50,042 bases of DNA from an uncultured Pseudomonadota bacterium. GTDB lineage: Bacteria; Pseudomonadota; Gammaproteobacteria; Steroidobacterales; Steroidobacteraceae. Below are positions 6,511-30,306 of this stretch, piece by piece. Within the stretch, counting starts at the first letter, position 1. The number at the start of each line of letters is the position of its first letter. The notes beneath the pieces are model-generated. The model saw only the letters and a list, made by a program, of their open reading frames with translations. It was not told the DNA's origin and ran no database searches. The stretch covers positions 1-50,042 of the forward strand of contig CALGVD010000135.1 in assembly GCA_937920275.1 (NCBI GenBank). The letters are read 5' to 3'. A program made the translations under genes and the position numbers.

Positions 6511-6575
6511 CGGGAGGTCTCGCCTCAAGGCCGCACGCTGTGACGCGCACAAGGGCCGCAGTATATGCTTCGCAG

Positions 6576-12902: not shown

Positions 12903-13079
12903 GCGACACTCCGTCGCTGGGATTGCCGCGCAACTTACCACCGCTGACCGACCACCGCGTGCCATCGTCCACGGAATCCGCGTGCGCCGCCGCCCACTGG
13001 CGCTTGTTCCCGTCGCTGCGCAACCTCGACCGGTTCCCGGATCCTGCCCGGGATTGAGGCCCGGACTCGGCCGCGCCTA

Positions 13080-13213: not shown

Positions 13214-13891
13214 ATGGCTCATCGGTCCCTGATCACCGCTGCCCTGTCCCTCTGTGCTGCCCTGTTCTTGGCGGGCTGCATGAGTGCACGCATCGAGGAA
13301 TCCCGGGAATTGTCCACCCAGATCGAGACGGGTGAGGCGGTGGTGATCCTCGCAAAGCCGCAGATCGAGGGTGCATCAGCGGACGACGATTTCATGGACT
13401 GCGTCGGACGCGGTCTTGCCTCGGGGGCGCGGCCGGTCGAGGTCCACGACAACAATGCCTTCGTCGACGGACTCTTCCCTTGGTTCGAGCCCGGGACGGC
13501 GCCCTCGCGACCGGAGGCTGTGAGCCGGTTGCTCGCCCGGCCAGGCGTGAGCGAGCGGGTCGCCGCGTCCGGGGTGCGTTATCTCGTCTGGCTGGACGGG
13601 GCGACGCGCAAGACCGACGGCGGTGGCAGCCTCGCCTGCGGCGCAGCGCCCGGCGCGGCCGGATGTGTGGGTTTCGGTTGGTGGGAGAACGAGTCGGACT
13701 TCGAGGCCGTCATCTGGGACCTCGAGAGCGGCAAGTCCGCCGGATCGATCGATACCAACGTGACCGGCACTTCGGCGATCGTCGGCGCCGTGGTGCCGTT
13801 GCCCTTCATCGCGCGGGTCGAGGCCACCGCCTGCAAGCGTCTGGCCGCCCAGCTACAAAATTTCTTCCAAGGCGGCGCACCGACGCCTTGA
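13214..13891 (+). CDS. Hypothetical lipoprotein, first gene of the ExbB-VWA-kinase cluster
   Basis: A 225-residue protein with a lipoprotein signal peptide: hydrophobic residues 6-20 and lipobox LAGC with Cys22. The mature part has a WLDGATRK..DFEAVIWDLESGKSAGS pattern and a short hydrophobic TGTSAIVGAVVPLPFIA stretch near the C terminus. This recalls small periplasmic CsgG/GNA1162-like lipoproteins, but I cannot assign a family. The ATG at 13214 has a GGAG site seven bases upstream; 24 in-frame upstream codons are leader. The position after Cys22 is Met, which does not favour inner-membrane retention by the Asp+2 rule, so the outer membrane is the likely location. Confidence 0.75.
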   Translation: MAHRSLITAALSLCAALFLAGCMSARIEESRELSTQIETGEAVVILAKPQIEGASADDDFMDCVGRGLASGARPVEVHDNNAFVDGLFPWFEPGTAPSRPEAVSRLLARPGVSERVAASGVRYLVWLDGATRKTDGGGSLACGAAPGAAGCVGFGWWENESDFEAVIWDLESGKSAGSIDTNVTGTSAIVGAVVPLPFIARVEATACKRLAAQLQNFFQGGAPTP

Positions 13892-13916
13892 TCGCGTCAT
13901 CGCCACGAGGATCCGG

Positions 13917-14639
13917 ATGATGAATTCTTTGAAACCCTTGCATATCGCGCTGTGCCTCGTAAGCCTTGTGGCGGTGACCGGTTGCGCGACACCTCAAGGA
14001 GACGGCGGCTCAGCCGGTATCCCCGGTAGTCCGTCGGGGGGCATGCCCGGGACGCCAGGGATGCCAGGCATGCCCGGGACGCCCGGGATGCCGGGGATGC
14101 CCGGGTCGCCCGGTATGCCCGGCATGCCAGGTTCATCGGGTGGTGCGGAGTCGTCCGAGGGCTCCGCAGATGGCACGCGGGATGGGGGCACCGCCAGCAC
14201 TGCCGATGAGCGCCGCGCGGTGCTCGACAAGCGGTTGGATGACTCGTTGGGCGAGTTCGATAAGACGCTCGGCGAGGAGCAGGCGCGCACCGCCCGCGAG
14301 CGTGATGCGCGCGGCGCGACGGTCGCCGCAGGCGGCGGCGCTGCGCAGTCCGGCGATGAAGGTGCTGGTGCGGGCGGTGAGGGCAGCTCTCGCGAGGGCG
14401 GTTTGAGCTCCGAGCGCAGCGCTGGCGCGAGCGCGAGCGCCAGTGGCGGTGAGCGGGGTGATCGCGGTGCGGCTGCGGGCAGTGGCGCCCCGGACCGGGG
14501 TGTCCCCTCCGGTGACGATGACGACATCGTCGCGCGGCGTCTGCGGCGTGCCGCCGAACAGGAGACCGATCCAGAACTGCGCGAGAAACTCTGGAAAGAA
14601 TATACGGAGTACAAGCGCAACGGTCAGGGCAGGGGTTGA
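13917..14639 (+). CDS. Collagen-like (Gly-Met-Pro repeat) lipoprotein
   Basis: A 240-residue lipoprotein with lipobox VTGC (Cys23). Directly after the anchor lies a Gly-X-Y tract of eleven triplets (residues 42-74: GMP, GTP, GSP mixtures), then a low-complexity Gly/Ser/Ala/Glu-rich stretch, and a charged C-terminal helix (about 205-236: DIVARRLRRAAEQETDPELR). The design suggests an extended spacer between lipid anchor and a helical binding end. Bacterial collagen-like tracts can form triple helices, often needing many more triplets, so trimerisation here is uncertain. Two adjacent ATGs (13917, 13920) both fit the upstream CGAGG site. It lies 25 bases after the first lipoprotein gene. Confidence 0.75.
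   Translation: MMNSLKPLHIALCLVSLVAVTGCATPQGDGGSAGIPGSPSGGMPGTPGMPGMPGTPGMPGMPGSPGMPGMPGSSGGAESSEGSADGTRDGGTASTADERRAVLDKRLDDSLGEFDKTLGEEQARTARERDARGATVAAGGGAAQSGDEGAGAGGEGSSREGGLSSERSAGASASASGGERGDRGAAAGSGAPDRGVPSGDDDDIVARRLRRAAEQETDPELREKLWKEYTEYKRNGQGRG
14040..14138 (+). repeat. Nine-base tandem repeat encoding the Gly-X-Pro collagen-like tract
   Basis: Eleven consecutive nine-base units of the form GG(N)-ATG/ACG/TCG-CC(N), differing mainly at wobble positions and at the middle codon (Met, Thr or Ser). A longer-period pattern of GMP-GTP-GMP/GMP-GTP-GMP/GMP-GSP-GMP is visible. Such in-frame repeats are prone to slippage that changes tract length without a frameshift. Confidence 0.85.
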
Positions 14640-14647
14640 GGATCACC

Positions 14648-15940
14648 ATGGACCAAGCGCCGTATCTTCATGTCGATGCACCACGGAGGCGAGTGCTCCT
14701 GCCGCAGTTCGCTGCGCTGCTGGTGGCGGTCGGCCTGCTCGGTGGCTGTGTGGTCAACGAGACCCGGCCGCTGGCGAAGCTCGAGGCCGTGCAGGCGAAG
14801 GAACAGATCCCTGAGGCGGAGTTGCTCGATATCGGTATCCGCGAATTCGACGCCGGCATCCCGGCTGAGATCGCCGATGACGAAGAGAAGCTCGACAAGC
14901 GGCGTATCTACCCGGATATCCGCAAGGCGGAGTCACGGTTGCTGGCGGTCCGGCTGCGCAGCACGCTGGAGGGCTCCGGCCAATGGGGTGCGGTGCGTGT
15001 CGTGCCCGAAGGCGTGTCCGGTCTCGATGTGATGGTCACCGCCCGCATCGTCGAATCCACGGGTGCCGACCTCGCGGTGCTCGTCTCGGCGGTCGACGCC
15101 CAAGGGCGCATCTGGATCAAGGACCGGCGCTATGCGAGCGAGGCCGATCTCGGTGCCTACAAGACCGAAGCGTCCCTGCGGGCCCGCGACCCGTTCCAGA
15201 ACGTCTACGCCACCATCGCCAACGACCTGCTCGCTGCGCGGGCGCAATTGCCTGCGGCCGATCGTCGCGAGATCCGTCGGGTCAGCGAACTGCGTTTCGC
15301 ACAGGACCTTGATCCGAAGCGTTTCCAGGGCTACCTCGTCCGTGGCACCGACGGGCTGACGCGGGTGGCGCGGTTGCCGTCGGCAGACGATCCGGCGCTG
15401 GCACGGGTCGTCAAGATCCGCGAACGGGACTCGGCCGTGATCGACACCGTCGACGGTTACGCCAGCGAGTTCGCCGACAAGCTGTTCGATCCCTACGGCG
15501 GTTGGCGGCGTACCAGTCGCGATGCGATCGAGCGCGAAGAGCGCACCCGCAATCAGGCGCGTACCCGCACCGTCCTCGGTGCAGCGGCGGTGCTCGCGAG
15601 CATCTTCGTCGGGGGGCAATGCGACCCCAGCGACTACAGCTGCCGGAACGCCGAGAGCATGCTGCGGACCACCGCGGTGATAGGTGGCACGGCGGCGGTG
15701 CTCTCCGGTATCCAAAGATATGGGGATGCGAAGGTCGCTGCGCAGGAGGTCAAGGAACTCGCAGGCAGCTTCGGCAACGAGGCCGCGACGCAGACCGTTG
15801 AACTCGAGGGCCGTACGCTCAAGCTCACCGGTACGGCGGAAGAGCAATATCGCGAGTGGCGGCGGTTGCTGGCGCAGATCTACAGCGAGGAGACCGGTAC
15901 GCCGTCGGGTTCCGGAGCCACCACGACCCCTGCACCGTAG
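14648..15940 (+). CDS. Hypothetical large lipoprotein of the ExbB-VWA-kinase cluster
   Basis: A 430-residue protein with a hydrophobic segment (residues 21-33) and lipobox LGGC, Cys34; the n-region is long. Residues about 85-200 form an alternating alpha/beta unit (LLAVRLRSTLEGSGQW, then VMVTARIVESTGADLAVLVS) like periplasmic accessory lipoproteins with a CsgG/TolB-N-type fold, but no family is certain. Near the C terminus two glycine-rich hydrophobic stretches (about 302-317 and 338-353) flank a small Cys-containing loop (QCDPSDYSC), which could form a disulfide or a membrane-inserting hairpin. The ATG at 14648 was chosen; an in-frame TTG at 14636 overlaps the previous stop. Next to the kinase gene, so possibly its periplasmic input. 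Confidence 0.7.
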   Translation: MDQAPYLHVDAPRRRVLLPQFAALLVAVGLLGGCVVNETRPLAKLEAVQAKEQIPEAELLDIGIREFDAGIPAEIADDEEKLDKRRIYPDIRKAESRLLAVRLRSTLEGSGQWGAVRVVPEGVSGLDVMVTARIVESTGADLAVLVSAVDAQGRIWIKDRRYASEADLGAYKTEASLRARDPFQNVYATIANDLLAARAQLPAADRREIRRVSELRFAQDLDPKRFQGYLVRGTDGLTRVARLPSADDPALARVVKIRERDSAVIDTVDGYASEFADKLFDPYGGWRRTSRDAIEREERTRNQARTRTVLGAAAVLASIFVGGQCDPSDYSCRNAESMLRTTAVIGGTAAVLSGIQRYGDAKVAAQEVKELAGSFGNEAATQTVELEGRTLKLTGTAEEQYREWRRLLAQIYSEETGTPSGSGATTTPAP

Positions 15941-15956
15941 GGCGGTGGACGCGCAG

Positions 15957-18221
15957 ATGGCGGACACCGGAGCCTTCGCTCATTTCACGCTGCTTGAGCG
16001 TCTGCACGGCGGCGGCGTGGCGCAGATCTGGAAGGTGCGCGATACGCAGAACGGACGCTTGAGGGCGCTCAAAGTCCTCGAGGGCCGAAAGGGCGCAGGT
16101 CCGTCGGGATCTGCAGCGGACATGACCGCGGCGATCGCAGCCTTGCGACGCGAGCACGAACTCTCCAGCGTGGTGACCCATCCCGGGATCCTGGCCGTCG
16201 ATCCGCCGTTGCTCGACGGCGATCGTGTCGGAATGCCCATGGCGTTGGCCGCCGATGATGCGCGGTCGTTGCGCGGCGCGTCGCCGATACGGGTGCTGCG
16301 TCTGTTACGGGAGGTCGCCGCAGCGCTTTCGGCACTGCACGCGCAAGGGGTCGCGCATCGCGATCTCAAGCCCGCGAACATCCTCCTCGATCGATCGGGC
16401 GCGGCGCTGTTGGCCGACTTCGGTTGCGCAGCAAGGTTCGGTGAGGACGGTGGGCTGACCGGCCGTTCGCCTTATTCCGCGGGCCCCGCGCAGCGTACGG
16501 GGGCCACGGTCACGGCGGGCGATGACCTGTACGGTTTCGGCGCACTGGCCTATGAACTGCTGGGAGGTTATCCGCCGCGGTATCCCGGCTCGCCCGATGC
16601 ACTCGGGGAGGTGCCACCGCTGCAGCCGCAGCATCCCATCCCGCCTGCCTTGCAGGGGCTCGTGATGTCATTGCTCGACTCCGACGAGTCCCGTCAGCCG
16701 GCCAGCATGGTCGGTGTGGCCGATGCGCTGCGACGGATCGAACTGCAGCCCCTTGCCGCGGCTGCCACGCGCATCCGGCCGCTCGAGGAGGCGGAGTTGG
16801 ATCCGCGCCGATCGACCGGTGAGGTGGGGCGCAGCCGTCGACCACGGACGATCATGGCGGTCGGGATCGCCGTATCGATAGCACTGCTCGCGGGTGTGTT
16901 TCTTTGGTTGCCGCGGTACGCCACTGAAGTCGCGCCACCCGTGGCTGTGACCGAGAAGGCGGCGAAGCCCGATGCCGCGAAGCCCGATGCTGCCGTGGAG
17001 GCCCGAGCGCTCGCTGACGCGAGGCGCGCTTTCGAAGGCGTGTTGGCGACGCTTGAGGCCCGTGCTGCAGGGGTCTGGGGCGGCGAGGCTTTCGCGACGG
17101 CCAAGGCGGATGGCGATGCCGCAGCACAGGTCGCCGCTGAGGGCCGCATCGCCCGAGCCACCGAACTCTATGGTCTGGCCACCGACAAGCTCGGTGCGGT
17201 GACCGGCCGCGCGGGGGCGGCGCTGGCGGCGCAGCGCAGCATCGGTGAGCGCGCGCTCGAGGCGGGGCAGCCTGAGGCTGCGAGTCAGGCATTCACGATC
17301 GCGTTGCAGATCGAACCCGACGACGCGGTGGCCCGTGCGGGTCTCGCGCGTGCCGGCAAGCTCGGTGCGGTGCTGCCGCTGTTGGCCGAGGCGGAGTCGG
17401 CGCTTTTGTCGGAACGACCGCTCGAGGCGGTGACGCTTTACGAGCGCGTGCTGCGCGACGACCCGGCGAACCGTACGGCACAGTCCGGGCTCTCCAAGGC
17501 GCGGACGGCGCTCGGTTCGGATGCTTATGCGCAAGCGGTCGGTGAAGCGCTGGCGGCATTGCGCGAGGGTCGTATCGATGCCTCCCGGACGGCGCTTGCG
17601 AAAGCCCGTGCGTTGCGCCCGGGTGGTGCGGAACTCGCCTTCGTCGAGGCGCAGTCGGCGGCGCTCGGTGTGCGGCGTGAGGTCGGCAGCCGCCGCGATG
17701 CGAATCTAGCGCTCGAGGCGGCGGAGCGCTGGGGCGAGGCGCAAGCCGGTTATGAGCAGTTGTTGGCGCGCGATCCGACCCTGGAGTTCGCGCGTGCGGG
17801 TCGGGCGCGCACCGCGCCGCGCGCCGAGTTGGCGCGACGGCTCGATCGACTGTTGGCCGATCCGTCGCGGCTCGTCGCACCGGAGGTGCGCCGAGAGGCG
17901 GAGACGCTGTTGGCCCGTGCCGCGGCGGTGCGCGGACAGGCACCGGTGTTGCAGGGGCAAGCGCAACGCCTGCGGGACTCATTGGCGCTCTATGATCAAG
18001 TGGTCGCCGCGGTGTTCGAGTCCGACGGACTCACGGCGGTCAGTCTGCAACGGGTGGGTACCATCGGCACATTCCGCCGCAAGGAGATCCGGCTCAAACC
18101 CGGTCGCTATGTCGTGACCGGCAGTCGTGACGGCTATCGCGATGTCCGGCGCGAGTTCGTGGTCGCACCAGGAAGTACGCCTGTGGTCGTCGAGGTGCGA
18201 TGCACCGAGGTGGTGTCGTGA
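15957..18221 (+). CDS. Transmembrane Ser/Thr protein kinase with periplasmic TPR-like and PEGA-like repeats
   Basis: A 754-residue protein with an N-terminal Hanks-type kinase (about 8-262): ATP Lys39 in LRALKV, catalytic HRDLKPAN with Asp136 and Asn141, and Asp154 in DFG. The Ala-Pro-Glu position of subdomain VIII is replaced by an AGPAQ sequence, so the usual Glu is missing. One membrane helix spans about 299-319. The outer half is Ala/Glu/Arg-rich helical repeats resembling TPRs (about 350-690), ending in a PEGA-like beta unit (LKPGRYVVTGSRDGYRDV). This is the layout of PASTA/PpkA-type receptor kinases. The ATG at 15957 is preferred to a GTG at 15945. It overlaps the SUMF1 gene as GTGA. 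Confidence 0.88.
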   Translation: MADTGAFAHFTLLERLHGGGVAQIWKVRDTQNGRLRALKVLEGRKGAGPSGSAADMTAAIAALRREHELSSVVTHPGILAVDPPLLDGDRVGMPMALAADDARSLRGASPIRVLRLLREVAAALSALHAQGVAHRDLKPANILLDRSGAALLADFGCAARFGEDGGLTGRSPYSAGPAQRTGATVTAGDDLYGFGALAYELLGGYPPRYPGSPDALGEVPPLQPQHPIPPALQGLVMSLLDSDESRQPASMVGVADALRRIELQPLAAAATRIRPLEEAELDPRRSTGEVGRSRRPRTIMAVGIAVSIALLAGVFLWLPRYATEVAPPVAVTEKAAKPDAAKPDAAVEARALADARRAFEGVLATLEARAAGVWGGEAFATAKADGDAAAQVAAEGRIARATELYGLATDKLGAVTGRAGAALAAQRSIGERALEAGQPEAASQAFTIALQIEPDDAVARAGLARAGKLGAVLPLLAEAESALLSERPLEAVTLYERVLRDDPANRTAQSGLSKARTALGSDAYAQAVGEALAALREGRIDASRTALAKARALRPGGAELAFVEAQSAALGVRREVGSRRDANLALEAAERWGEAQAGYEQLLARDPTLEFARAGRARTAPRAELARRLDRLLADPSRLVAPEVRREAETLLARAAAVRGQAPVLQGQAQRLRDSLALYDQVVAAVFESDGLTAVSLQRVGTIGTFRRKEIRLKPGRYVVTGSRDGYRDVRREFVVAPGSTPVVVEVRCTEVVS

Positions 18222-20686
18222 CCGGCCTGTCGCTGCAGGTGCGCGAGCCCGCCGGTGAGCGTGAGCTCGGCTTGCCCTGTGCGTTCGGCGGGTCCCCGGC
18301 AGACCCGCTGCGGATTCCCGGTGTCGAGGATGTGACGGTCGGCGTCTTCGAGCGACTCGACGGCGCGTTCGGGGTACGACTCATCGATGGCGCGCCAGTC
18401 GCCGCCATCACATCGTCGGGCCGAGCACGGCTCAATGGTCGGTCGCTGGCGATCGGTGACTTCCACGAACTCGTCGTGGGTGATGTGTTGTCGCTCGGCG
18501 AAGCCCTCATCGTCGTCGATGGCGAGGGTCCTGCGATCGATGTGCGTCACATGCAGGGCAACGACACGCTGCCGCCGCTGCGATCGACGGTCGAGGAGCG
18601 TGACGAAGATGACCCAGCGACGACCGCCATCACGGCAGTCGCGGTGGCGCCTGATGCGCCGGGCGCAGGCGCCGCGGGTCCGGTGACAGCGGCTGCCCGT
18701 ACCGCACAGGCGTCGCAGCGTCGGCAGTGGGTGACGGCGCTGCTGCTGCTCGGGGCGGTGGTCGGCCTCCTCGGCTGGGTGTTGCTCAGCATGCAGTCGG
18801 TGACTGTGGTGGTGACGCCTGCCGAGGCCACGGTACGCGGCTCCGGGATCAGCTGGCGCTCGGGACAACTGCTGTTCCTGCGGCCGGGGCCACAGGTGGT
18901 GACCGCCCGTGCAGCCGGTCATCGCGATATGTCGCGGAACATCCAGGTGCGCGAGGGCGAGTCCTTGCGTCTTGATCTGCGGCTCGAGCCGCTGCCCGGT
19001 GTGCTTGAACTGGATACCGGGGGTGTCGTCGCGCAGGTCTTCATCGATGGCGCGGAGGCGGGGCGTGCACCGGGGTCCATCGAGGTCGCGGCGGGGGAGC
19101 GGACGCTGACGCTGCGCGCACCGCGCTTCCTCGATGCGCTGCAGAAGGTCAAGGTCGAAGGCCGTGGTGTGCGCCAACCGCTGCGCATCGAGATGCGCAG
19201 CAACTGGGGCCGGCTCGAAGCGAGCGTGAGTGCGGGCGCGGCGTCGTTGTCGGTCGATGGCGCCGCAGCGTTGCCCATGCCGGTGTCTCTGGAACTGCCT
19301 GCGGGGATGCATCGCCTCGAGGTGGTCGCACCCGGCGTCCGACCGTGGCGCAGTGCGGTGCTCGTCAAGGTCGGCGAGACTGTGCGGGTAGGTCCGATCG
19401 AACTCGGCGCGCCGGACATGACGGTGTCGCTGCGCTCGCAGCCGACCGGTGCGCAAGTCACAGTGGGTGGCAGCTTCCGTGGGCGCACACCGATCGATGT
19501 CGAGTTGGCGCCCGGCGTCGATCACGATGTGGGGTTCGCGCTGCAGGGTTACGCGCCCGCGAGCCGGCGTATCGCGGCGCAAGCCGGCAAACGGGAGGGC
19601 ATGACGGTCGTGCTGCAGCCTGTGCTGGTCGCGCTGACCGTACAAGGTGAGCCGATCGAGGCGGAGATCTGGGTGGACGGTGTGTCGCGCGGCGTTTCGC
19701 CGATCACGCTGCAGTTACCCGCCCGTCCGCATCGGGTCGAGGTACGGCACAAGGGTTCCGAACCGCAGCAGTTCGCGGTCGACCTCTCTGCTGCGGTGGC
19801 GCGGACCCTCGATTACTCGCTGCGGCCCGCGGGGCGACCGGAGGGTTGGAAGCCGGCCGCAGCAACGCTCACGACCGGTGCAGGTCGCACGCTGCAGTTG
19901 ATGCCGCCGGGCAGTTTCGTGATGGGCAGCGAGCGTCGCGAGCAAGGGCGGCGCGCCAACGAACCTTTGCGCCGTATCACGCTGTCGCGCCCGTTCTACC
20001 TCGCCGCGCGTGAAGTCACCAACGGTGACTTCCGCCGTTTCCGGTCTGCCCATGCGTCGGGTGCCGTCGACCGTCGCAGCATCGATCTCGACGGACAGTC
20101 AGTCACCCGCGTAGCGTGGGCTGATGCCGTCGAGTACTGCAATTGGCTCTCGGCGCAGGACGGCTTGCCGCCCGCCTATGAAAAGTCCGGGGGCGATTGG
20201 ACGCTGCGCCAGCCGGTCACGACCGGTTATCGACTGCCGACCGAGGCCGAGTGGGAATATGCCGCGCGGCAGGTCCCGTCGGCTGGGCGCGCCCGGCGCT
20301 ATGAATGGGGCGATGATCTGCCGCCGCCGCCCGGGTATGCGAACCTCGCTGGGATCGAGACCGCGGCGACGCTACCGCGTGTGCTCGAGGGTTGGCAGGA
20401 CGAGTATCCATCGGTGGCGCCGCCCGGCAAACATGGCGCGAACGGCCTTGGGCTCTTCGATCTGACCGGCAATGTCTCGGAGTGGGTCCATGACGCGTAT
20501 GCTTCTTTTGATGCTGCGGGCGGTGGCACCGATCCGCTCGGTCCTGCAGCGACGGGATCCCGTCGCGTGATCAAAGGCAGCAACTGGCGTACGGCCTTGT
20601 ACTCCGAGCTGCGCCCGGCGTGGCGTGAGGGCGCTGACGGCGGTTCGCAGGACATCGGATTCCGGGTGGCCCGTTATGCGGAATGA
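18218..20686 (+). CDS. Single-pass membrane protein with FHA-like N terminus, PEGA repeats and a C-terminal SUMF1/FGE-fold domain
   Basis: An 822-residue protein. Residues 1-105 resemble a degenerate FHA domain (ARLNGRSLAIGDFHELVVGD). A membrane helix follows at 172-192, then about four PEGA-type beta repeats (195-545) with recurring short-turn motifs such as PTGAQVTVGG and AEIWVDGVSRG. The C terminus (about 555-820) is a formylglycine-generating-enzyme-like fold: PPGSFVMGSE, YRLPTEAEWEYAAR, LGLFDLTGNVSEWV. The final segment reads KGSNWRTALYSELRPAWR and lacks the two catalytic Cys of true FGE, so a binding role is likely, as for TagR of type VI secretion. The GTG start at 18218 overlaps the kinase stop and follows GAGGTGG. 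Confidence 0.87.
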   Translation: MTGLSLQVREPAGERELGLPCAFGGSPADPLRIPGVEDVTVGVFERLDGAFGVRLIDGAPVAAITSSGRARLNGRSLAIGDFHELVVGDVLSLGEALIVVDGEGPAIDVRHMQGNDTLPPLRSTVEERDEDDPATTAITAVAVAPDAPGAGAAGPVTAAARTAQASQRRQWVTALLLLGAVVGLLGWVLLSMQSVTVVVTPAEATVRGSGISWRSGQLLFLRPGPQVVTARAAGHRDMSRNIQVREGESLRLDLRLEPLPGVLELDTGGVVAQVFIDGAEAGRAPGSIEVAAGERTLTLRAPRFLDALQKVKVEGRGVRQPLRIEMRSNWGRLEASVSAGAASLSVDGAAALPMPVSLELPAGMHRLEVVAPGVRPWRSAVLVKVGETVRVGPIELGAPDMTVSLRSQPTGAQVTVGGSFRGRTPIDVELAPGVDHDVGFALQGYAPASRRIAAQAGKREGMTVVLQPVLVALTVQGEPIEAEIWVDGVSRGVSPITLQLPARPHRVEVRHKGSEPQQFAVDLSAAVARTLDYSLRPAGRPEGWKPAAATLTTGAGRTLQLMPPGSFVMGSERREQGRRANEPLRRITLSRPFYLAAREVTNGDFRRFRSAHASGAVDRRSIDLDGQSVTRVAWADAVEYCNWLSAQDGLPPAYEKSGGDWTLRQPVTTGYRLPTEAEWEYAARQVPSAGRARRYEWGDDLPPPPGYANLAGIETAATLPRVLEGWQDEYPSVAPPGKHGANGLGLFDLTGNVSEWVHDAYASFDAAGGGTDPLGPAATGSRRVIKGSNWRTALYSELRPAWREGADGGSQDIGFRVARYAE

Positions 20687-20700
20687 AGGAGACGAGTGCC

Positions 20701-21015
20701 ATGCGTGATGGAAAGGGACCCGGGCTGCGGGTCGGTCGGATGATCGGCTGGATGGCCGGCTTTGCCCTCTTTTGCTTGGGCGCGACGACCTACATGGTGA
20801 GGGCTGTGGCGCAGGAAGCGCCCGCCGTGCCGTCGCCCACCGAGCCGCAGCCGAGCACGCCGTCCGCAGAGGATGCGGACCCCGGCACCGATGCCGACAC
20901 CAACGAAGATGAACCCGCCGATCCGTCGCGCGGCGCTGCTGCAGCCGTGTCGGAAGAGCTCCCCGAGTACCGCGATTCCGCGGACAACAACATCAGCCTG
21001 CCGGTCGACATATGA
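20701..21015 (+). CDS. Small membrane-anchored acidic protein of the ExbB-VWA cluster
   Basis: A 104-residue protein with one N-terminal hydrophobic helix (about 14-33) followed by a Pro/Glu/Asp/Thr-rich, probably disordered periplasmic tail. An Ala-rich site after the helix (VRAVAQE) could also be a signal-peptidase cleavage site. I recognise no family. The ATG at 20701 is preceded by AAGGAGA nine bases away; an ATG at 20683 overlapping the previous stop is less well supported. It overlaps the proton-channel gene by ATGA, implying coupling and perhaps stoichiometric expression. Confidence 0.65.
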   Translation: MRDGKGPGLRVGRMIGWMAGFALFCLGATTYMVRAVAQEAPAVPSPTEPQPSTPSAEDADPGTDADTNEDEPADPSRGAAAAVSEELPEYRDSADNNISLPVDI

Positions 21016-21812
21016 AACACAACATGCCCAATGAATTCATCTTCACCGTGGTGGCACTGCTGCTGTCGGTGGTCCTCGTGCATTCCGCATACGTGCTGCA
21101 TGTGCGACCGGTCGCCGAGGCGCAGATGCGCGCGGATCGCGAGGCCATCGCGAAGGACCCTGATCATGTCTCGCAGCGATCCGTCCATGTGCTCATCAAG
21201 GACTACGAGCAGGAGGCGGTGATCATCCTGATGCTATGGGCGCTCGCCATCCTCGGCTACAAGGCTGTCGCGCAGAGACACGAGGTGCGGGCCTTGCGGG
21301 CGGAGCTGTTGCGGCTGCCCGAGGGCATGAAGATCCTGCCCGAGGACACCCGGGAGTACGCCCGCCAGCTCGAAGCCCTTCCCGAGGCGAGCCGCGACCT
21401 GTTGGTGCCGCGCGCGCTGCTTGCCGCATTGGCGCGCTTCGGTGCTACGCGCAACCTGCAGGATGCTTCCACGGTGGCACACGGAGTCTGCCAATCCGAA
21501 GCCGAGCGACTCGATTCTGATCTCTCCATGCTGCGCTACATCGCTTGGGCGATCCCCGCGATCGGGTTCATCGGCACGGTCCGCGGCATCGGCGATGCGT
21601 TGTCACAAGCGCATAAGGCCGTCACCGGCGACATCTCCGGCGTCACCGAGGGGCTGGGCGTCGCCTTCAACTCGACGCTGATCGCGTTGTTGTTGTCGAT
21701 CCTGCTGATGTTCCTGATGCAGCAGTTGCAGCAGGCCCAGGAGCGGCGCGTGCTCGACACCGAGACCTGGCTCGATCAACGGGTGATCCGCAACCTGCAG
21801 GTCGTTGAATGA
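21012..21812 (+). CDS. MotA/TolQ/ExbB-family proton-channel protein
   Basis: A 266-residue inner-membrane protein with four predicted helices: 9-30, 67-86, 175-198 and 217-240, with a large cytoplasmic loop between helices 2 and 3, as in the MotA/ExbB superfamily. The signature region is IPAIGFIGTVRGIGDAL (181-197), and helix 4 has the polar FNSTLIALL of ExbB/TolQ. Family members form pentamers around a dimer of ExbD/TolR/MotB-type peptides and convert proton flow to motion. No ExbD/MotB gene follows; instead two VWA proteins with an Asp-bearing anchor helix do. ATGA overlaps at both ends tie it to its neighbours. Confidence 0.87.
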   Translation: MKHNMPNEFIFTVVALLLSVVLVHSAYVLHVRPVAEAQMRADREAIAKDPDHVSQRSVHVLIKDYEQEAVIILMLWALAILGYKAVAQRHEVRALRAELLRLPEGMKILPEDTREYARQLEALPEASRDLLVPRALLAALARFGATRNLQDASTVAHGVCQSEAERLDSDLSMLRYIAWAIPAIGFIGTVRGIGDALSQAHKAVTGDISGVTEGLGVAFNSTLIALLLSILLMFLMQQLQQAQERRVLDTETWLDQRVIRNLQVVE

Positions 21813-23173
21813 CCGTGCTCGGCGCGCACCTCGATGATGCGGAGTTCGCTGTGGCGCGCGACGGCGCGACGCTTGCGAGCGCGCTGTCCATCGTGCACGC
21901 CGATCCGTCCGATCCGTCGCGTTTCGGGACACCCGCCGCCGACACGGCACGCCGTACGCCACACCTTGTATCGCTGACCCATTGGTCTTCTTTGGCGCGT
22001 GGTGCCGCGCTCGCCCGTCCCGTCCAGTCGGTGCTGCGTGCCGAGTTGCGTGAGCGGCTCGGGACCCTTCATCGACCCGGAGACAGCTTGCAGCTGGCGG
22101 TACCGGCTGCGCTCGAGGCACCCGCGCTCGGTTGGGTGCTCGGTGCCTGCCGTGCGGAGTCGCTGCCGGTCGCTGCGTTGTACGATGGCGCGGCGGTCGC
22201 GGTGTCGGCACTCGGCCTGCAAGGTACGGTGGTGGTGCTCGAGGCCGGCCTCCACCACCTCGGCGCGGTGCGCGTCGTGACGGAGGGCGGTACGGCCCGG
22301 CGTCGGGCTGCCCGGGTGACCCGCGACACCGGGCTCATGGCGCTGCGCCAAGCATGGATGCAGCTCATCGCCGAAGCGATGTTGCTGCGCTCCCGATTCG
22401 ATCCGTTGCACGACGCGGCATCTGAGCAGCGGCTCTTCGATCGCATCATGCCCGCGGCAGCCGAGGCCGCGACCGAGAGTTCGGTGACGCTCGAGTTGCC
22501 GACCGGTGGTCTGCCCTGCGCGGTGACGCTCAGCCGCGACCAGTTCGCCGCTGCGGCGCGCCCGGTGCAGCGCGCGTTGCTCTCGAGCATCGACGGGCTG
22601 CGACCGCCCGGTGCCCCGTTCACGCTGCTGGTACCGGCCGTTCTGCTCGCGGTACCGGGGTTGGCCCCGTCGCTGCTCGCGCTGCCGAATTCACGCGTCT
22701 TCGTGTTGCCGAGCGACCTGATCGCCCGTGCCGTCTCGATGCTGTCCGCGGAAAGCGATGCAGCCGACGAGAGTGCGGAGGTCTTGCTGCATCGCGCCGT
22801 GCCGCAGATGCTGCCGCTCGAGGCGGCGAGCGAGCTTGTCGCAGGGACGAACGACCCTCCGCACCGCGCTCCGCCCACCCATGTGCTTTGGGAGGGTCAA
22901 GCGCTGCCGCTCGTCGGGGCGCTGGAGGTCGGGCGGGCGCCGGCGGCCGGTGGCGTCCGTCTCGGCGACGGTCTCGCAGGCATCTCGCGGATGCACTGCA
23001 GCCTGTGCACTTCCGCTTCTGGGGTAGAGCTCGTCGACCACAGCCGCTTCGGTACCTGGCTCAACGGGCGGCGGGTCGCCGGTCGTGCGTCCCTCGCTGC
23101 CGGTGATCGCATCCGCATCGGCGATCCTGGTGTCGAACTCGCCTTGATCGCCGTCGGCGCGGACCCGCGCTGA
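21809..23173 (+). CDS. Hsp70/actin-fold-like protein with C-terminal FHA domain
   Basis: A 454-residue cytoplasmic protein with no signal peptide. Residues about 1-340 look like a degenerate Hsp70-type ATPase fold: VAALYDGAAVAVSALGLQG followed by TVVVLEAGLHHLGAVRV parallels the phosphate-2 strand region of Hsp70, and SVTLELPTGGLPCAVTLSRDQF parallels the later Hsp70 lobe; the classical phosphate motifs are not intact. Residues about 366-450 form an FHA domain with EVGRAP, GISRMHCSL and FGTWLNGRRV, all expected phosphothreonine-binding positions present. It would read phosphorylation by the upstream kinase. ATGA overlap with the channel gene. Confidence 0.75.
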   Translation: MTVLGAHLDDAEFAVARDGATLASALSIVHADPSDPSRFGTPAADTARRTPHLVSLTHWSSLARGAALARPVQSVLRAELRERLGTLHRPGDSLQLAVPAALEAPALGWVLGACRAESLPVAALYDGAAVAVSALGLQGTVVVLEAGLHHLGAVRVVTEGGTARRRAARVTRDTGLMALRQAWMQLIAEAMLLRSRFDPLHDAASEQRLFDRIMPAAAEAATESSVTLELPTGGLPCAVTLSRDQFAAAARPVQRALLSSIDGLRPPGAPFTLLVPAVLLAVPGLAPSLLALPNSRVFVLPSDLIARAVSMLSAESDAADESAEVLLHRAVPQMLPLEAASELVAGTNDPPHRAPPTHVLWEGQALPLVGALEVGRAPAAGGVRLGDGLAGISRMHCSLCTSASGVELVDHSRFGTWLNGRRVAGRASLAAGDRIRIGDPGVELALIAVGADPR

Positions 23174-23192
23174 GCAGGCTTGGAGGTCTTCG

Positions 23193-24287
23193 TTGAAGCG
23201 CCGTCGCATCGAGATCTTCAGCCTGTCGTTCCTCGACGTGATCTGTTGCGGCTTCGGCGCCGTCATCCTGTTCTACACCATCATCAGCGCCCAGAGCGGC
23301 ATCGAACGCACCCGCAAGGCCGAGGATCTCTCCGCGCAGGTGGCGCTGCTCGAGGAACAGGTGGTGGCAGGCGCCAAAAACCTGGTGTTGCTGCGCAACA
23401 CGCTGCGTCGTACCGACAGTGAGACGGTCTCGGCATCCTCCCGGGCCACCCGATTGATCGAGGAGCTCCAGGAGCGTCGCGAGCAGAGCGCGATCTACGA
23501 TGCCAGCACGCTCGCCAAACGCGAGCGCATCGAGCGTCTGAAAGCCGATGTGCGTGCGCTGGACGAGAGCACCCGACGACTCGAAGTCAGTGCGAAGACC
23601 GATACGCCCAAGGCTGATCGTACCGGTGCAGCGCGTGCCACGGCGAGCCGGCGTTCCATCACCGGTCTGTCGCTGCACGGCAAGCGCGTGTTGGTGCTGT
23701 TCGACCGATCGGCGAGCATGATGGACGATGATCTGGTGCAGATCATCCGCCTGCGAAATTCCGATGAGGCGGCCCGCCGCGCGGCGCCCAAATGGCAGCG
23801 AGCGACCGACATCGCAGGTTGGGTGGTGTCGCAGTTGCCTCCCGGTGCTCAGTTCCAGGTCTATGGCTTCAACGAAACCGCTGAACCGCTGCTGAGCGGG
23901 ACCGCAGGCCAGTGGCTGTCGGCAGGCGATGCCGAGCGGCGACGACAGGTCACCGTCGCCATCGATGCCGCGCTGCCGCAGGGCGGCACGAGCCTCGTCA
24001 ACGCGCTGCGTGCGGCACGCGCGTTCGTGCAACCGCCCGACCAGATCATCCTGATCACGGACGGGCTGCCGACCCAGGGTGCGACACCGCCGGCGCTGCG
24101 CCGCTATGTCGGGGTCGCCGAGCGCGCCCGCTTCTTCGATGAGGCGGTCCGCGACATCAACGCCAGCGTGCCGGTGGATGTGGTGCTGTTGCCCATGAAG
24201 GGCGATGTCCCCGCGCCGCATCGCTTCTGGGGGTTGGCGCGTACCACCAAGGGGTCGTTCATCATGCCCTCGAGGGACTGGCCGTGA
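23193..24287 (+). CDS. Membrane-anchored coiled-coil VWA-domain protein 1 with ExbD-like anchor helix
   Basis: A 364-residue protein. The N terminus is basic (MKRRR), followed by an anchor helix about 8-33 that contains Asp15 in SFLDVICCGFGA, positioned like the proton-carrying Asp of ExbD/TolR/MotB. A coiled coil spans about 36-132. The VWA domain (about 164-360) has a MIDAS motif DRSAS with Asp171, Ser173 and Ser175, a GGTSLVNAL Thr, and LITDGLPT. The start is TTG at 23193, backed by TGGAGG six bases upstream and by the matching N terminus of the next gene. Predicted topology: short cytoplasmic end, periplasmic coiled coil and VWA. Confidence 0.82.
   Translation: MKRRRIEIFSLSFLDVICCGFGAVILFYTIISAQSGIERTRKAEDLSAQVALLEEQVVAGAKNLVLLRNTLRRTDSETVSASSRATRLIEELQERREQSAIYDASTLAKRERIERLKADVRALDESTRRLEVSAKTDTPKADRTGAARATASRRSITGLSLHGKRVLVLFDRSASMMDDDLVQIIRLRNSDEAARRAAPKWQRATDIAGWVVSQLPPGAQFQVYGFNETAEPLLSGTAGQWLSAGDAERRRQVTVAIDAALPQGGTSLVNALRAARAFVQPPDQIILITDGLPTQGATPPALRRYVGVAERARFFDEAVRDINASVPVDVVLLPMKGDVPAPHRFWGLARTTKGSFIMPSRDWP
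23211..23261 (+). repeat. Near-identical 51-base segment, copy 1 (anchor-helix codons of VWA protein 1)
   Basis: Encodes EIFSLSFLDVICCGFGA, residues 7-23. It matches 24322-24372 at 47 of 51 bases, the four differences all silent third-position changes, while the two proteins are otherwise clearly diverged. This indicates strong constraint on the anchor or recent local gene conversion. Confidence 0.85.
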
Positions 24288-24297
24288 GGGCGCTGGC

Positions 24298-25347
24298 ATG
24301 CGATTGAAGCGGCGCGAGACCGAGATCTTCAGCCTGTCGTTCCTCGATGTGATCTGCTGCGGGTTCGGCGCGATCATCCTGCTGCTCGTGTTGTCGGAGT
24401 TCGGGCAGCCGCTCGTGATCGAGCGCTCGCGGCAGGACCTCGAGTCACAGCTCAAGCGCTTGCAGCAAGAGCTGTTCGCCATCCGCGGCGACAGTCAGGT
24501 GCTGGAGCGGGAGCTGCAGGGGCGTATCGATCTGCTGCAACGCGAGCGGCTCAATCTGGCCCGTGCCGCAGGCGACATGAGCGCACTGCGCGGCCAGTTC
24601 GACGCCTCGCGCCAAGAGGCGGCGGTCAGCAACATCGTCGAGAACGAGCTGCTCTCCGCCTACCAGGAACTGCAAGAGACCAACGAGCGGTTGACCCAGG
24701 CGTCGCGTTCGCGTCGTCGCATCAACACCAACGCGGTCGGCGGGATCCCCGTGGACAGCGACTATGTGATCTTCCTCATCGACACCTCGGGAAGCATGCA
24801 GAGCGCACATTGGGAGACCGCGATGGCCGTCATGCGCGAGGTGCTCGACATCTACCCGCGCCTGAAGGGCCTGCAGATCGTCGATGACAACGGCCGAGAG
24901 CTCTTCACCGGCACGCGGGGACGCTGGTTGGTGGACTCACAGTCGCTACGCCAGGACATCGTCAACCGGATGCGCACATGGCGGGCGTTCAGCGACTCGA
25001 ACCCTGCCGATGGCATCGAGGCCGCGATCCGCACCTATTGGTCCGCCGATCGGCGCATCAGCGTCTATGTGCTGGGAGACGAGTTCACGGGCGAAAGCAT
25101 CCAAGCGGCGCTCGATGCCGTCGACCGGATCAACCGGCCGGATGCCGGCGGTCGCCGCCGTGTCCGCATCCACGGCATCGGCTTTCCCGAGGGCGGTATG
25201 GCGCCCTTTACAAACATCCGCTTTGCCGCCCTAATGCGAGCCATGTGCGAGCGCAACGACGGCACTTTCGTCGGTCTCACGCAATCGCGGCGATGTGCCG
25301 CGACGATCAACATCGGAGGCATCAACACATGCGTCGGTGGCAGTTGA
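24298..25347 (+). CDS. Membrane-anchored coiled-coil VWA-domain protein 2 with ExbD-like anchor helix
   Basis: A 349-residue paralogue of the preceding protein. Same basic start (MRLKRRE), then anchor helix about 10-33 with Asp17 in SFLDVICCGFGA, a coiled coil (about 42-137) and a VWA domain (about 153-345) with canonical MIDAS DTSGSMQS (Asp162, Ser164, Ser166). Unlike the first copy it has no TDG motif; the equivalent strand reads ISVYVLGDEF. The last residues include a Cys pair region (CAATINIGGINTCVGG). ATG at 24298, ten bases after the first VWA gene. The two paralogues could form a heterodimer inside the channel pentamer, as ExbD forms a dimer. The 3' end overlaps the lipoprotein gene by 19 bases. 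Confidence 0.84.
   Translation: MRLKRRETEIFSLSFLDVICCGFGAIILLLVLSEFGQPLVIERSRQDLESQLKRLQQELFAIRGDSQVLERELQGRIDLLQRERLNLARAAGDMSALRGQFDASRQEAAVSNIVENELLSAYQELQETNERLTQASRSRRRINTNAVGGIPVDSDYVIFLIDTSGSMQSAHWETAMAVMREVLDIYPRLKGLQIVDDNGRELFTGTRGRWLVDSQSLRQDIVNRMRTWRAFSDSNPADGIEAAIRTYWSADRRISVYVLGDEFTGESIQAALDAVDRINRPDAGGRRRVRIHGIGFPEGGMAPFTNIRFAALMRAMCERNDGTFVGLTQSRRCAATINIGGINTCVGGS
24322..24372 (+). repeat. Near-identical 51-base segment, copy 2 (anchor-helix codons of VWA protein 2)
   Basis: Second copy of the segment at 23211-23261, encoding residues 9-25 of the second VWA protein; only four silent differences. Confidence 0.85.
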
Positions 25348-26069
25348 CGGCAGTCTTAGGTGTCGCTGCGTTCGCGAGCGGATGCGGCAACATGCAGATC
25401 GCGCCGCAACCGGTGTTCCCCAAGGCGCTCATCGAGCCGATGCCGGCGACCGTGGGCCTCGTGCTGCCCGCCGAGCAGCGCGACTTCCGGCACGAAGAGA
25501 CGCGGTCGGGTACGACATGGGCTGTGCTGCTCGGCTCAGCACAACAACATTTCGCGCGCACCGTCATGGGTGTCCTGTTCCGCGAGGTGCGCGAATTCCC
25601 AGCCGCCTCGGCGGCCACACTCGACCCGCAGGTACAGGCGGTGTTCGAGCCGCACATCGAGCAGTACTCCTTCGCCACGGCGCAGGAGACGGGCGGAGAG
25701 TATGTGGCGGTGACCATCCGCTACCGCATCGAGGTGACCGCGCCCGATGGCGGCGCCCACGACACGCTGACGCTGACCGGATACGGCACCAGTTCGACCA
25801 GCAGTCTCGGTTTCGATGCCAAGGGTCCGATGGACCAAGCGACGCGTGCTGCGATGCGCGATGCCGCGGCCAAGTTCATGGTGCAGTTCGGCGATCTGCC
25901 GTTGGCGGCGACGCTCGCCAAGGGCGAGCGCGTCACGGGAGACGGTGTCGCCGCGCGTACGGACGCGGGGCAGTCCATCGAGGCGCTGTCGATCCGCGGC
26001 TCGCGTCGGCCTGCATCGTTGCAGGCCCCGGTCGTCGTCACTCCTTCGACGACGCCTGCGGGACCTTGA
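25329..26069 (+). CDS. Hypothetical lipoprotein closing the ExbB-VWA cluster (YajG-like in outline)
   Basis: A 246-residue protein with a short signal and lipobox ASGC (Cys19). The mature N terminus (TVGLVLPAEQRDF..) followed by TTWAVLLGSAQQHFARTVMGVLF and alternating beta strands looks like YajG/LptE-type envelope lipoproteins, but I cannot name a family. The ATG at 25329 lies 19 bases inside the end of the second VWA gene, implying coupling. The last 32 bases overlap the convergent TPR/TonB-C-like gene. As the fourth lipoprotein of the cluster it suggests an outer-membrane-facing partner for the machine. Confidence 0.72.
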   Translation: MRRWQLTAVLGVAAFASGCGNMQIAPQPVFPKALIEPMPATVGLVLPAEQRDFRHEETRSGTTWAVLLGSAQQHFARTVMGVLFREVREFPAASAATLDPQVQAVFEPHIEQYSFATAQETGGEYVAVTIRYRIEVTAPDGGAHDTLTLTGYGTSSTSSLGFDAKGPMDQATRAAMRDAAAKFMVQFGDLPLAATLAKGERVTGDGVAARTDAGQSIEALSIRGSRRPASLQAPVVVTPSTTPAGP

Positions 26070-27462
26070 TCAGCATCCGTTCGCGCAGGATGACGCCGTC
26101 GGTCTCGGTCGGCACGCCGGCTTCGAGCCTGGGTGCGTAGCGGGCTTTTCGGGCGGCGAACATCACCGAGCGTGCGACCGCATCGGGTTCGCTGCCATCC
26201 GCGAGCGCGGCCTCGGTGACTTTGCCGTCGGCCGCCACCTTCAGCCGCAGTTCGACGATGCGCTCGACGAACCCGTCCGGATCCGACGGTGAGAGCCGGG
26301 CAGCCGACGCCGGTGGCGGACGATAGACGGCCCTGCGTGGTGATTCATAGGGCCGTCGTGCTGACGGGCCGGCCAGGGTCAAAGATTTCCAGGCCTCGGC
26401 GTAGGCGGCGGAAGCACGCGCTGGGACGCCCGTCAGGAGGTACCAATCACCGAGCTGCGCCAGCGTCTCGCCGAGCTGCCGATCATCGACAGGCGGGTGG
26501 CTGCGCAGCACGCCCACGGCGGTGCGCAGCATGCGCTCGCCTTCCGGGTTCAGCCGGCCACCGCCGCGCACGGTCGGGAAGGGATCGAAGCCGCTGGTGG
26601 TGTCGGGTGCCGTGTTCGGTTGCACCTCTGGGCCGAACAAGGCTTCGTCGAGCCAGGTCCGTGACAGACCGCGCAGCGCCGGTACGCCCGCCGGGGGTGT
26701 CGAGGTCGCGCCCTGCTCGGCGATCTGCAGCGCGCGCGCATGCAGGCCTCGCGCGGTGCTGTAGCGGCCGATCGATTCGTACCACCTTGCGAGCCGGTCG
26801 AGCGGGTCGAGCAGGCGCGGGTCGTTACGGCCATAGGCGGTCTCGGCGACACGGAACGAGAACAGGTGCTCGCGTTCGGCTTCCTCGCGAAGACCGAGGA
26901 CGACATAGCTTTCGATGAGCGGGTCGACGATATCGAGTTGCGCGAGGTTGTAGAGACCGTCGAGGTTGCGCGACAGGTCGACGGCACGCTTGAAGACGAC
27001 CGCCGCTTCGGCATGCCTGCCGGCGGCCAACCAGGTCTCGCCGAGACCCGTGAGCGGCCGGACCAGGTCCCGATCGGCGCCCCCGCTCTGCCCGTCGATG
27101 AGCGCCACCGCGCGTTGGTAATCGGCCTCGGCAGCGGCGAGATCGCCGCGTCGCAAGGCGACGGTGCCCGCGTTGGTGAGGGGGTTCACGAGTTCCCGGG
27201 CGTCTTTACCGAAGCGGGCTTCGGTGAGTGCCACCACGGCGGCGGCCTCGATCGCGGCCGCCTCGAGCCGATCCTCTGCAAGCGCCGCCCGCAGCCGGGC
27301 GTGCGCCGACGCTCTTTCGTCGGCGGAGGGTGGCAGCGCCGACGCCGCGATGGGCGGGGAGGTCGCCTGCGCGTCCTGCCCCATGGCAGCGGTGGCTTCG
27401 GCGGCGGGTGCCGCCAGCAGCAGGCTCAGCGCCGCTCGAAGAGATAATGCGAAACGATCCAT
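26038..27462 (-). CDS. Secreted TPR-repeat protein with TonB C-terminal-like domain
   Basis: A 474-residue protein with a signal peptide (about 1-25: [20 protein letters not shown]). Several TPR-like helical pairs follow (about 50-260), for instance [31 protein letters not shown]. The C terminus (about 385-465) reads [25 protein letters not shown] and [15 protein letters not shown], the TonB-C/energy-transducer-like pattern of strand, DG turn and helix. Such proteins are periplasmic and of unclear function. The ATG at 27462 lies 37 bases inside the end of the methyltransferase gene and has a GGAG site. It is the last gene of the VanZ-DUF2062-methyltransferase operon and converges on the VWA cluster. 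Confidence 0.8.
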
Positions 27463-28496
27463 TCGCGTCCGCTCCGGTAGCCGAAAAGTTCCGCACAGGA
27501 CATGAAGAATACACGCCAATACACCCACCAGCGCAGCGCTTGGTCGGCGCCGTAGGCCTCGGCGAGCGCCGGCATGAGGGTGGCGCGGTTCGCGTCCATG
27601 TTCTGCAGCCAGGCCTCCGAGGTGAGCTGGTAATGCCGACCATCGACCTGCCAGTGGTCTGCGAGGCGCAGGTCACGCTGGAAGTAATGCAGCAGATCGT
27701 CGCTTGGCATGATGCCGCCGGTGAAGAAATACCGCGCCATCCAGTCGCTCTCATCGCGCACTTCGAAGGTGTACGCGAAGCGATGGTGGGTGAAGATATG
27801 GACGAACAGCGTCGCACCGGGCGCCATCCACGAAGCGATGCGACCGAGCAGCGTCTGGTAGTTCCGCATGTGCTCGAACATCTCCACCGACACGACGCGG
27901 TCGAACCGCGTATCGGCATCGAACTCCAGTCGGTTCGCATCGCGGGTGATGATCTCGAGGTTGTGCAGACCGCGTTCGGCGGCTCGCGCATCGATGAACG
28001 CTTTTTGGGTCCGGGAGTTCGAGACGGCGGTGATGCGTGAACCGGGGTAGTGTTCGGCCATCCACAACGACAGCGATCCCCAGCCGCAGCCGAGTTCGAG
28101 GATGCGATCGCCATCGCGCAGCCGAGCCCGCTCGCAGGTCAGCGCCAGCATGCGTGCTTCGGCGGCCCCGAGGCCGGCTGCAGCGCGGGCTACCGTGAAG
28201 TCGTCGTAGAGGCAGCTCGAGTATTTGAGGTGCGGCCCCAGCGCCTTGAGATAGAACGCGGCCGGCACCTCGTAGTGCTGTTCGTTCGCGGCGTCGGTAT
28301 GGATCGCGATCGGGCTCTCGCACAGCCGCCGTACCATCGACATCAGATGCGATTGCTGGGCCTCGGGACTGCCCTTGTCCTCCTCGGCGAGGCGCTGCGC
28401 GAGAAGTGTGCGGATGCGCCGTCGGATGAGCCAGTCCGGCACACGGTCCGACTCGAGCAGCCGCATCGACAGCGAAGTCTGGGTCTGGTCCGTCAT
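27426..28496 (-). CDS. Cyclopropane-fatty-acyl-phospholipid-synthase family SAM-dependent methyltransferase
   Basis: A 356-residue cytoplasmic methyltransferase with the SAM motif [10 protein letters not shown] (about 134-143), the family segment [17 protein letters not shown] (71-87) and [10 protein letters not shown]. It is shorter than E. coli Cfa (382) and closer in outline to the CFA-synthase-like branch that includes coclaurine N-methyltransferase-type enzymes, so the product (cyclopropane lipid or another methylated compound) is uncertain. The ATG at 28496 overlaps the DUF2062 stop (ATGA). Envelope lipid modification fits its VanZ and DUF2062 neighbours. Confidence 0.88.
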
Positions 28497-30177: not shown

Positions 30178-30306
30178 AAATCTGTGACGCGCGTCCTAAC
30201 CGCCCGGACGGCACTTTCCATCATCATTCGTACACAGTCTAACCGTAAACACTGCTTGCACCCGCCCGGGTCCTGACGGCACTCTGGCGATCGACGAACT
30301 GTTCCT

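Follow-up and report, generated by a model that had tools for sequence, protein, structure and literature searches.

Gene content of the locus

We analyzed a cluster of 11 genes, a candidate envelope machine, from an uncultured Steroidobacteraceae bacterium (Pseudomonadota). The cluster lies on contig CALGVD010000135.1, whose 50,042 nucleotides are referred to here as the window and represent a single contig out of a 2.7-Mb genome. Positions 13214-26069 of the forward strand contain 11 open frames, named g1 to g11 in their order along the strand (Table 1), which are separated by 8-25 bases or overlap by 4-19 bases. With the starts chosen here, the successive spacings from g1 to g11 were +25, +8, +16, -4, -4, -4, -4, +19, +10 and -19 bases, in agreement with the tight one-strand arrangement reported in a first-pass annotation of the same DNA.

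The domain content given in that annotation was largely recovered by Pfam searches, including the ExbB-type channel (g7, MotA/ExbB PF01618, 2e-14, 53.8 bits against a cut-off of 22.9), the receptor kinase (g4, 5e-18), the FHA domain (g8, 6e-10) and the PEGA and SUMF1/FGE domains (both in g5, 1e-33 and 7e-43, respectively). As for the twin VWA proteins, g9 exceeded the Pfam cut-off (1.8e-8), whereas g10 fell under it (2.4e-4; 22.1 vs 27 bits) but could be aligned with g9 at 22% identity. Lipobox-like motifs were detected with a regular expression in all four proposed lipoproteins (g1, g2, g3 and g11). No Pfam or NCBIfam family matched g1, and the match of g2 to the Pfam Collagen family (0.001) was under the cut-off.

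Table 1. Genes of the cluster, flanking genes of the window, and the other MotA/ExbB genes of the same genome with their ExbD or MotB neighbors
Feature	Position	Strand	Description
g1	13214-13891	+	225-aa (amino acid) lipoprotein, family unassigned; LAGC lipobox-like motif
g2	13917-14639	+	240-aa lipoprotein; run of collagen-like Pro-Gly-Met repeats
g3	14648-15940	+	430-aa lipoprotein; alpha/beta domain (TolB N-domain/FlgT/PelC/CsgG-like), then long helices
g4	15957-18221	+	754-aa inner-membrane protein; Ser/Thr kinase, hydrophobic segment 298-316, TPR-like repeats
g5	18218-20686	+	822 aa; putative divergent FHA-like N-domain, hydrophobic segment ~172-190, four PEGA, SUMF1/FGE-like domain; GTG start, alternative ATG at 18200 possible
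g6	20683-21015	+	110-aa small protein, present only in near relatives
g7	21012-21812	+	266-aa MotA/TolQ/ExbB-type channel; pore threonines T189, T222
g8	21809-23173	+	454 aa; degenerate Hsp70 nucleotide-binding-domain fold (1-317), C-terminal FHA
g9	23193-24287	+	364-aa motor-dimer candidate 1; TTG start, Asp helix (SFLDV), coiled coil, VWA
g10	24298-25347	+	349-aa motor-dimer candidate 2; Asp helix (SFLDV), coiled coil, VWA-like
g11	25329-26069	+	246-aa lipoprotein, family unassigned; ASGC lipobox-like motif
Upstream flank	11202-12965	-	
Convergent gene	26038-27528	-	TPR repeats and C-terminal TonB_C-like domain just under cut-off (22.7 vs 24.6 bits)
Downstream gene	27426-28895	-	Cyclopropane-fatty-acid synthase-like methyltransferase (PF02353)
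Downstream gene	28990-30177	-	VanZ-family protein
MotA/ExbB, contig C32	14010		ExbD at 14489
MotA/ExbB, contig C118	27288		ExbD at 26803
MotA/ExbB, contig C29	30818		ExbD at 30228 and 29784
MotA/ExbB, contig C29	61267		MotB at 60981
MotA/ExbB, contig C43	5948		MotB at 6527

Conservation and distribution of the cluster

Occurrence analysis revealed that the clustering of these genes is not due to chance, and that the gene content, and mostly the order too, recurs in Gammaproteobacteria, in another class of the phylum and in further phyla. The g10 protein of the window was 99% identical to that of Proteobacteria bacterium UBA964, and the next relatives (76-81%) carried the titles Steroidobacteraceae, Nevskiaceae or just (gamma)proteobacterium. 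Of 274 genomes from the class, 19 encoded relatives of g10 (own genome included; E 1e-6, with one weak match at 1e-11). At the level of the phylum, 15 of 299 did so (own genome included; E 1e-50), as did 8 of 145 from the phylum to which a matching Kiritimatiellia genome belongs (that genome included; E 1e-20). A mixed VWA alignment at E 1e-6 reached 36 of the 299 genomes, those beyond the 15 resembling general VWA matches. A scan of named genome contigs yielded at least 550 relative-encoding stretches; titles among the best 80 of these included Steroidobacteraceae, Woeseiaceae, Desulfobacterales, Acidobacteria, Myxococcales and Kiritimatiellia. The operon was also present in the isolates Steroidobacter gossypii and Peristeroidobacter soli.

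Each gene was profiled in 99 loci, comprising these best 80 stretches and 19 from further genomes. Among the 53 loci that extended 9.5 kb or more upstream of g10, g9 was present in all 53, g5 in 52, g4 in 51, g3 and g7 in 48 each, g8 in 47, g2 in 42, g11 in 19, and g1 and g6 in six each; these counts ignore kinship between loci, and the gene profiles were partly built from the same loci. Thus, the neighborhoods are kept across genomes, and the loss of neighborhoods that the first-pass annotation had named as a refuting condition was not observed. Its proposal is supported to the extent that it places a MotA/ExbB channel together with two VWA proteins at the base of a complex. Because of their rarity among the 53 loci, g1, g6 and g11 are members of the cluster in part of the family only.

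The partnership was also observed in 14 g10 loci found later (L183 and L187-L199), which lay outside the profile build: g7, g9 and g10 occurred together in all of them. Six of these loci came from genomes whose two VWA matches had already been seen, for which g7 is a fresh test and the pair is not, and seven covered every other matching genome from the phylum of the Kiritimatiellia genome. The whole set of g2, g3, g4, g5, g7, g9 and g10 was present in half of the 14 (L183, L187, L189, L190, L193, L198 and L199), and the locus of L188 was cut by its contig. In the seven further loci from the phylum of the Kiritimatiellia genome, g7, g9 and g10 were found in 7/7 and the whole set in 1/7 (L193), and in two others (L194 and L195), g4 or g5 lay close by on the opposite strand.

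The content of the cluster outlasts its gene order. One locus (L134) carried g7-g10 and g2-g5 as facing halves on opposite strands, and another (L046) had g7 placed after g10, at the end. A homologue of g1 stood in front of the cluster in the window, L037, L079 and L095, and behind g11, at the other cluster end, in L044, L045, L047, L048, L142 and L190. With regard to neighboring genes, 29 of the 99 loci carried, downstream and on the opposite strand, a homologue of the convergent TPR gene, and 81 of the 99 extended 2.5 kb or more past g10. In addition, a same-strand gene family directly followed g10 or the cluster in 14 loci, of which six were titled Woeseiaceae; the one member tested (L148:2394-3155) contained a glycine zipper-like stretch and an OmpA domain (8e-14), and gave weak ZorB matches.

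The channel and the VWA pair

Analysis of conserved residues revealed that T189, N220 and T222 of g7 were each invariant in 75 of 75 sequences, the window included. In the VWA proteins, Asp17 of the N-terminal helix was found in 37/37 aligned sequences. In wider sets, Asp followed [SA][FA]L in 84 of 91 g9 proteins (five of the remaining seven read SFID, also Asp) and in 94 of 96 g10 proteins (the exceptions being one Glu and one AFID). When the g9/g10 helices (IFSLSFLDVICCG) were aligned with ExbD of the same genome (INTTPLVDVMLVL), the Asp fell at the same position, for example INTTPLVDV of ExbD against IFSLSFLDV of the VWA helix. Sequence comparison with solved structures gave no match for g7 at 0.01 and two coiled-coil matches only for g10.

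A search of the window genome identified six MotA/ExbB, four ExbD and two MotB matches. All five MotA/ExbB genes other than g7 had an ExbD or MotB gene within ~0.7 kb (Table 1), which accounted for all six ExbD/MotB genes. The same search found no ExbD or MotB in the neighborhood of g7, which is adjoined by the VWA pair instead, and no cluster protein matched the ExbD/TolR family.

Putative signalling and scaffold proteins

The kinase domain of g4 has ALK (37-39), HRD (134) and DFG (154) motifs. Its TPR-like repeats were under the Pfam cut-off here and over it in several relatives. Among the first 10 g4 relatives, the kinase was present in two (L037 and L038), those closest by kinship. At one locus (L146:1253-2332), the kinase domain occupied a frame separate from the rest of g4, representing either a frameshift or a true split gene.

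Two domains had been missed in the first-pass annotation. First, the N-terminal two thirds of g8 adopt an Hsp70 fold. By sequence, g8 matched solved structures of both Hsp70 (2.4e-7) and FHA (1.5e-8), and its structural model, with a predicted local distance difference test score (pLDDT) of 93, resembled mortalin (6p2u; Z 29.5, root-mean-square deviation 2.9, 317 residues aligned). The GGGT phosphate loop of Hsp70 is replaced, as the GGGT stretch of SSB1 aligned with LDLQLHRA of the family profile, and the Hsp70-like part may thus serve as a pseudo-ATPase scaffold. A hydropathy scan of g8 flagged 273-291 (2.13) and 119-148, both within the folded domain, and g8 was taken as cytoplasmic. Second, the N-terminus of g5 is predicted to be a divergent FHA-like domain. 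Profile comparison gave 94.7% probability against the whole g8 alignment and 71.9% against a poorer FHA alignment, and the best solved-structure matches were mostly chains that also matched the FHA domain of g8; the Pfam FHA model gave no match to this domain.

We also considered whether the SUMF1 domain of g5 could be an active formylglycine enzyme. Formylglycine-generating enzymes carry a pair of catalytic Cys residues close to their C-terminus. In g5, the stretch from residue 561 onward has a single Cys (641), with none beyond it; such an activity was rejected because of the missing Cys.

A candidate trans-envelope motor

The observed basis of a motor consists of the gene partnership, the conservation of the Asp and the threonines, and the absence of a linked ExbD or MotB. 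Judging from these sequence features, the cluster probably encodes a trans-envelope proton-driven motor composed of the g7 channel, a g9/g10 VWA dimer and envelope partners. In such a motor, five g7 subunits would form an inner-membrane channel, and one g9 and one g10, each with a single N-terminal helix carrying a protonatable Asp, would enter the pore in place of ExbD/TolR/MotB. Proton flow would turn or tilt the periplasmic VWA pair, whose coiled coils and VWA domains may pass the force to the TPR part of g4, the PEGA/SUMF1 part of g5 and the lipoproteins g3 and g2. On the cytoplasmic side, g8, with its degenerate Hsp70 and FHA domains, and the FHA-like N-domain of g5 would constitute an assembly or gating platform, which in this lineage is probably controlled through phosphorylation by the g4 kinase. 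The 5:2 assembly, rotation and force are proposed by analogy with the family. The likeliest uses of the force would be to remodel or stabilise the envelope, or to move a component of the cell surface.

On the outer-membrane side, the lipid Cys34 of g3 was almost invariant (alignment A5). Its model (pLDDT 88) gave TolB (4r40) as the best Foldseek match (E 5e-3, prob 1.0, TM 0.19), and the best sequence match to solved structures was at 0.17. The lipobox motifs, together with this weak fold match of a predicted structure, suggest that the complex may reach the outer membrane.

A different interpretation is that the cluster encodes an ion-channel-gated signalling or adhesion complex, in which kinase, FHA, PEGA and VWA domains would act as sensors of the envelope or the surface, with proton flow serving only as a switch between states. 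This is consistent with the HRD and DFG motifs of the g4 kinase, the FHA domain of g8 and FHA-like domain of g5, and the general ability of VWA domains to bind ligands. Yet, among 65 loci of clear state, the kinase domain was present within g4 in 35 and missing in 30, and the FHA domain of g8 was present in 41 and missing in 24 (with or without g8 itself), while both VWA genes occurred at all of the 53 loci described above and g7 at 48. Signalling therefore appears to be an add-on, since the kinase and FHA are often missing where g7, g9 and g10 persist, and we consider a primarily signalling or adhesive complex unlikely. The kinase is an optional layer, and the motor persists without it; the earlier description of the complex as kinase-controlled thus applies to some lineages, including this one, and not in general.

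It is also conceivable that the VWA proteins dock beside the channel as transducers of the TolA/TonB type, and that the dimer of g7 is an ExbD/TolR borrowed from a different system. Side-docking VWA transducers near tolQR have been described as the first of two VWA families (PMC12204202), and ExbD proteins are encoded elsewhere in the window genome. On the other side, the Asp of the VWA helix sits at the ExbD position, every ExbD/MotB gene found adjoins another channel, and the second VWA family, according to the same paper and for its own proteins, is without the SHLS motif of the side-docking helices. Relocated g7 genes were informative in this respect. In six genomes (G213 and G558-G562), g7 was missing from the first-found g10 locus and a close g7 was present elsewhere (E 1e-99 or better). 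In five of these (G213 and G558-G561), the g7 locus and the cluster locus did not share any 40-base word, and no ExbD/MotB was found within 20 kb of g7 on its contig, two of the contigs being short (G558, 9.7 kb; G560, 24.3 kb); the nearest was 21.6 kb away, in G559. In G560, g7 was on a different contig, judging by its length, with an additional partial g7 match at 1e-19. The sixth genome was that of Peristeroidobacter soli, where g7 lies inside a full operon and the first-found locus was a second, orphan VWA pair. Side docking with a borrowed dimer therefore seems rather improbable. Because all ExbD/MotB genes found are beside other channels, the Asp is in register and conserved, and T189 and T222 are invariant, g9 and g10 are most likely the dimer of a 5:2 motor with g7, replacing ExbD/MotB.

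A Zorya-like anti-phage motor is highly improbable: PADLOC ZorA models matched g7 weakly (22 bits) and the OmpA-domain gene behind g10 (L148) had a weak ZorB match (3.6e-5), but ZorB, ZorC and ZorD were not among the PADLOC matches listed for g3-g11 (for g4, 25 of 33 families). Anti-phage defence more broadly was likewise rejected, as the PADLOC matches of g4 looked like general kinase matches and those of g7 were the weak ZorA ones.

Several observations weigh against the proposed trans-envelope motor. First, g7 was far under the NCBIfam equivalog cut-offs (27.5 vs 221 bits for TolQ and 21.8 vs 135.35 for ExbB2), and the N-terminal helix of the VWA proteins is Cys/Gly-rich, differing from ExbD of the same genome. 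Second, the orphan pair of Peristeroidobacter soli (L106:8754-11014) resembles g9-g10 and had no other cluster gene across 21 kb, in a genome that also carries the full operon. Third, four of the seven further loci from the phylum of the Kiritimatiellia genome (L191, L192, L196 and L197) showed none of g2-g5 within the stretch, and g2-g5 are thus not obligate neighbors. Fourth, the comparison of g3 with FlgT (3w1e; Z 8.5, root-mean-square deviation 4.0, 136 residues aligned) was tied with coiled coils matching the helices, and Z values up to 8.5 can also arise by chance for models that lack clear relatives; the TolB/FlgT likeness is therefore a lead only. Fifth, the OmpA-domain gene after g10, possibly a further periplasmic or peptidoglycan anchor, is unexplained by the model. 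Finally, co-evolution of kinase and FHA was dropped. Raw counts at 61 loci (31, 1, 10 and 19) gave a Fisher value of 1.4e-7, but on the g10 tree, a quick tree with flagged long branches on which the kinase and FHA states form few large blocks, there were four changes per trait and only three independent pairs (p = 1), so that no linkage is claimed. The set of 65 loci differs from these 61 by removal of L090, L115 and L140, where g4 lies at an edge, and of L146, whose kinase occupies its own frame, and by addition of the window and seven later loci.

We regard it as about evenly balanced whether the cluster represents a distinct and widespread machine with approximately eight core genes (g2, g3, g4, g5, g7, g8, g9 and g10), which would combine a proton motor whose rotor is an obligate VWA heterodimer with a TolB/FlgT-like lipoprotein, TPR and PEGA/SUMF1 parts outside, a degenerate Hsp70-FHA platform inside, and kinase control in some lineages. 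If the motor interpretation is true, VWA proteins can be the moving dimer of a 5:2 proton motor, and a proton motor would be tied to phospho-signalling and a pseudo-chaperone. To our knowledge, proton-driven 5:2 motors with a known use are of few kinds, and we found no published function for a g7-VWA motor. The conserved partner set points to proteins worth deleting, tagging and co-purifying.

Comparison with known systems

The cluster shares with Tol-Pal (TolQRA-TolB-Pal) a MotA/ExbB-type channel and, by a weak fold match, a lipoprotein with a TolB-N-like domain; it differs in having a VWA dimer and no ExbD/TolR match, and in the distance of g7 from the TolQ cut-off. Similarly, g5 has a SUMF1-like domain in common with GldK/PorK of the type IX secretion system and gliding machinery, and its best NCBIfam match was GldK. 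However, this match reached 81.2 bits against a cut-off of 350, and g5, a protein with PEGA domains, lacks a lipobox and carries its hydrophobic segment internally. Zorya ZorAB belongs to the same 5:2 motor class; the cluster differs from it in that ZorB, ZorC and ZorD were not among the matches listed for g3-g11.

The closest likeness is to the TPH-vWA/TolQ-like motors; two VWA families near TolQ-like motors were proposed in 2025 (Mol Biol Evol; PMC12204202). The second family is described there as having paired VWA genes, a helix that carries an Asp, and no TolR/ExbD, and the paper presents an AlphaFold 3 (AF3) model of the channel-VWA complex with the Asp facing a Thr ring. Judged by the features described in that paper, our cluster fits this family on every tested feature: a TolQ-like gene adjoined by two distinct VWA genes (48/53 and 14/14 loci here), a heterologous VWA pair (22% identity, both present in 53/53 loci), an Asp in the N-terminal helix together with conserved pore threonines, and no TolR/ExbD/MotB nearby. 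The first-pass statement that no named system was known to have this gene set therefore needs to be qualified: we also found none for the set as a whole, but the channel with a heterologous VWA pair had already been proposed as a motor (PMC12204202). The main text of that paper does not mention kinase, SUMF1, PEGA or Hsp70, and its single word beginning with FHA is FhaC; some genes of the wider apparatus may appear in its gene-neighborhood figure. Since those domains are missing from its main text, and a literature search outside preprints and most subscription journals found no paper on the whole gene set, we rate the wider apparatus as new. Thus, relative to the main text of PMC12204202, the motor core is already proposed, and the new part is the apparatus around it, namely lipoprotein g3, the TPR protein, the FHA-like/PEGA/SUMF1 protein and the degenerate Hsp70-FHA protein.

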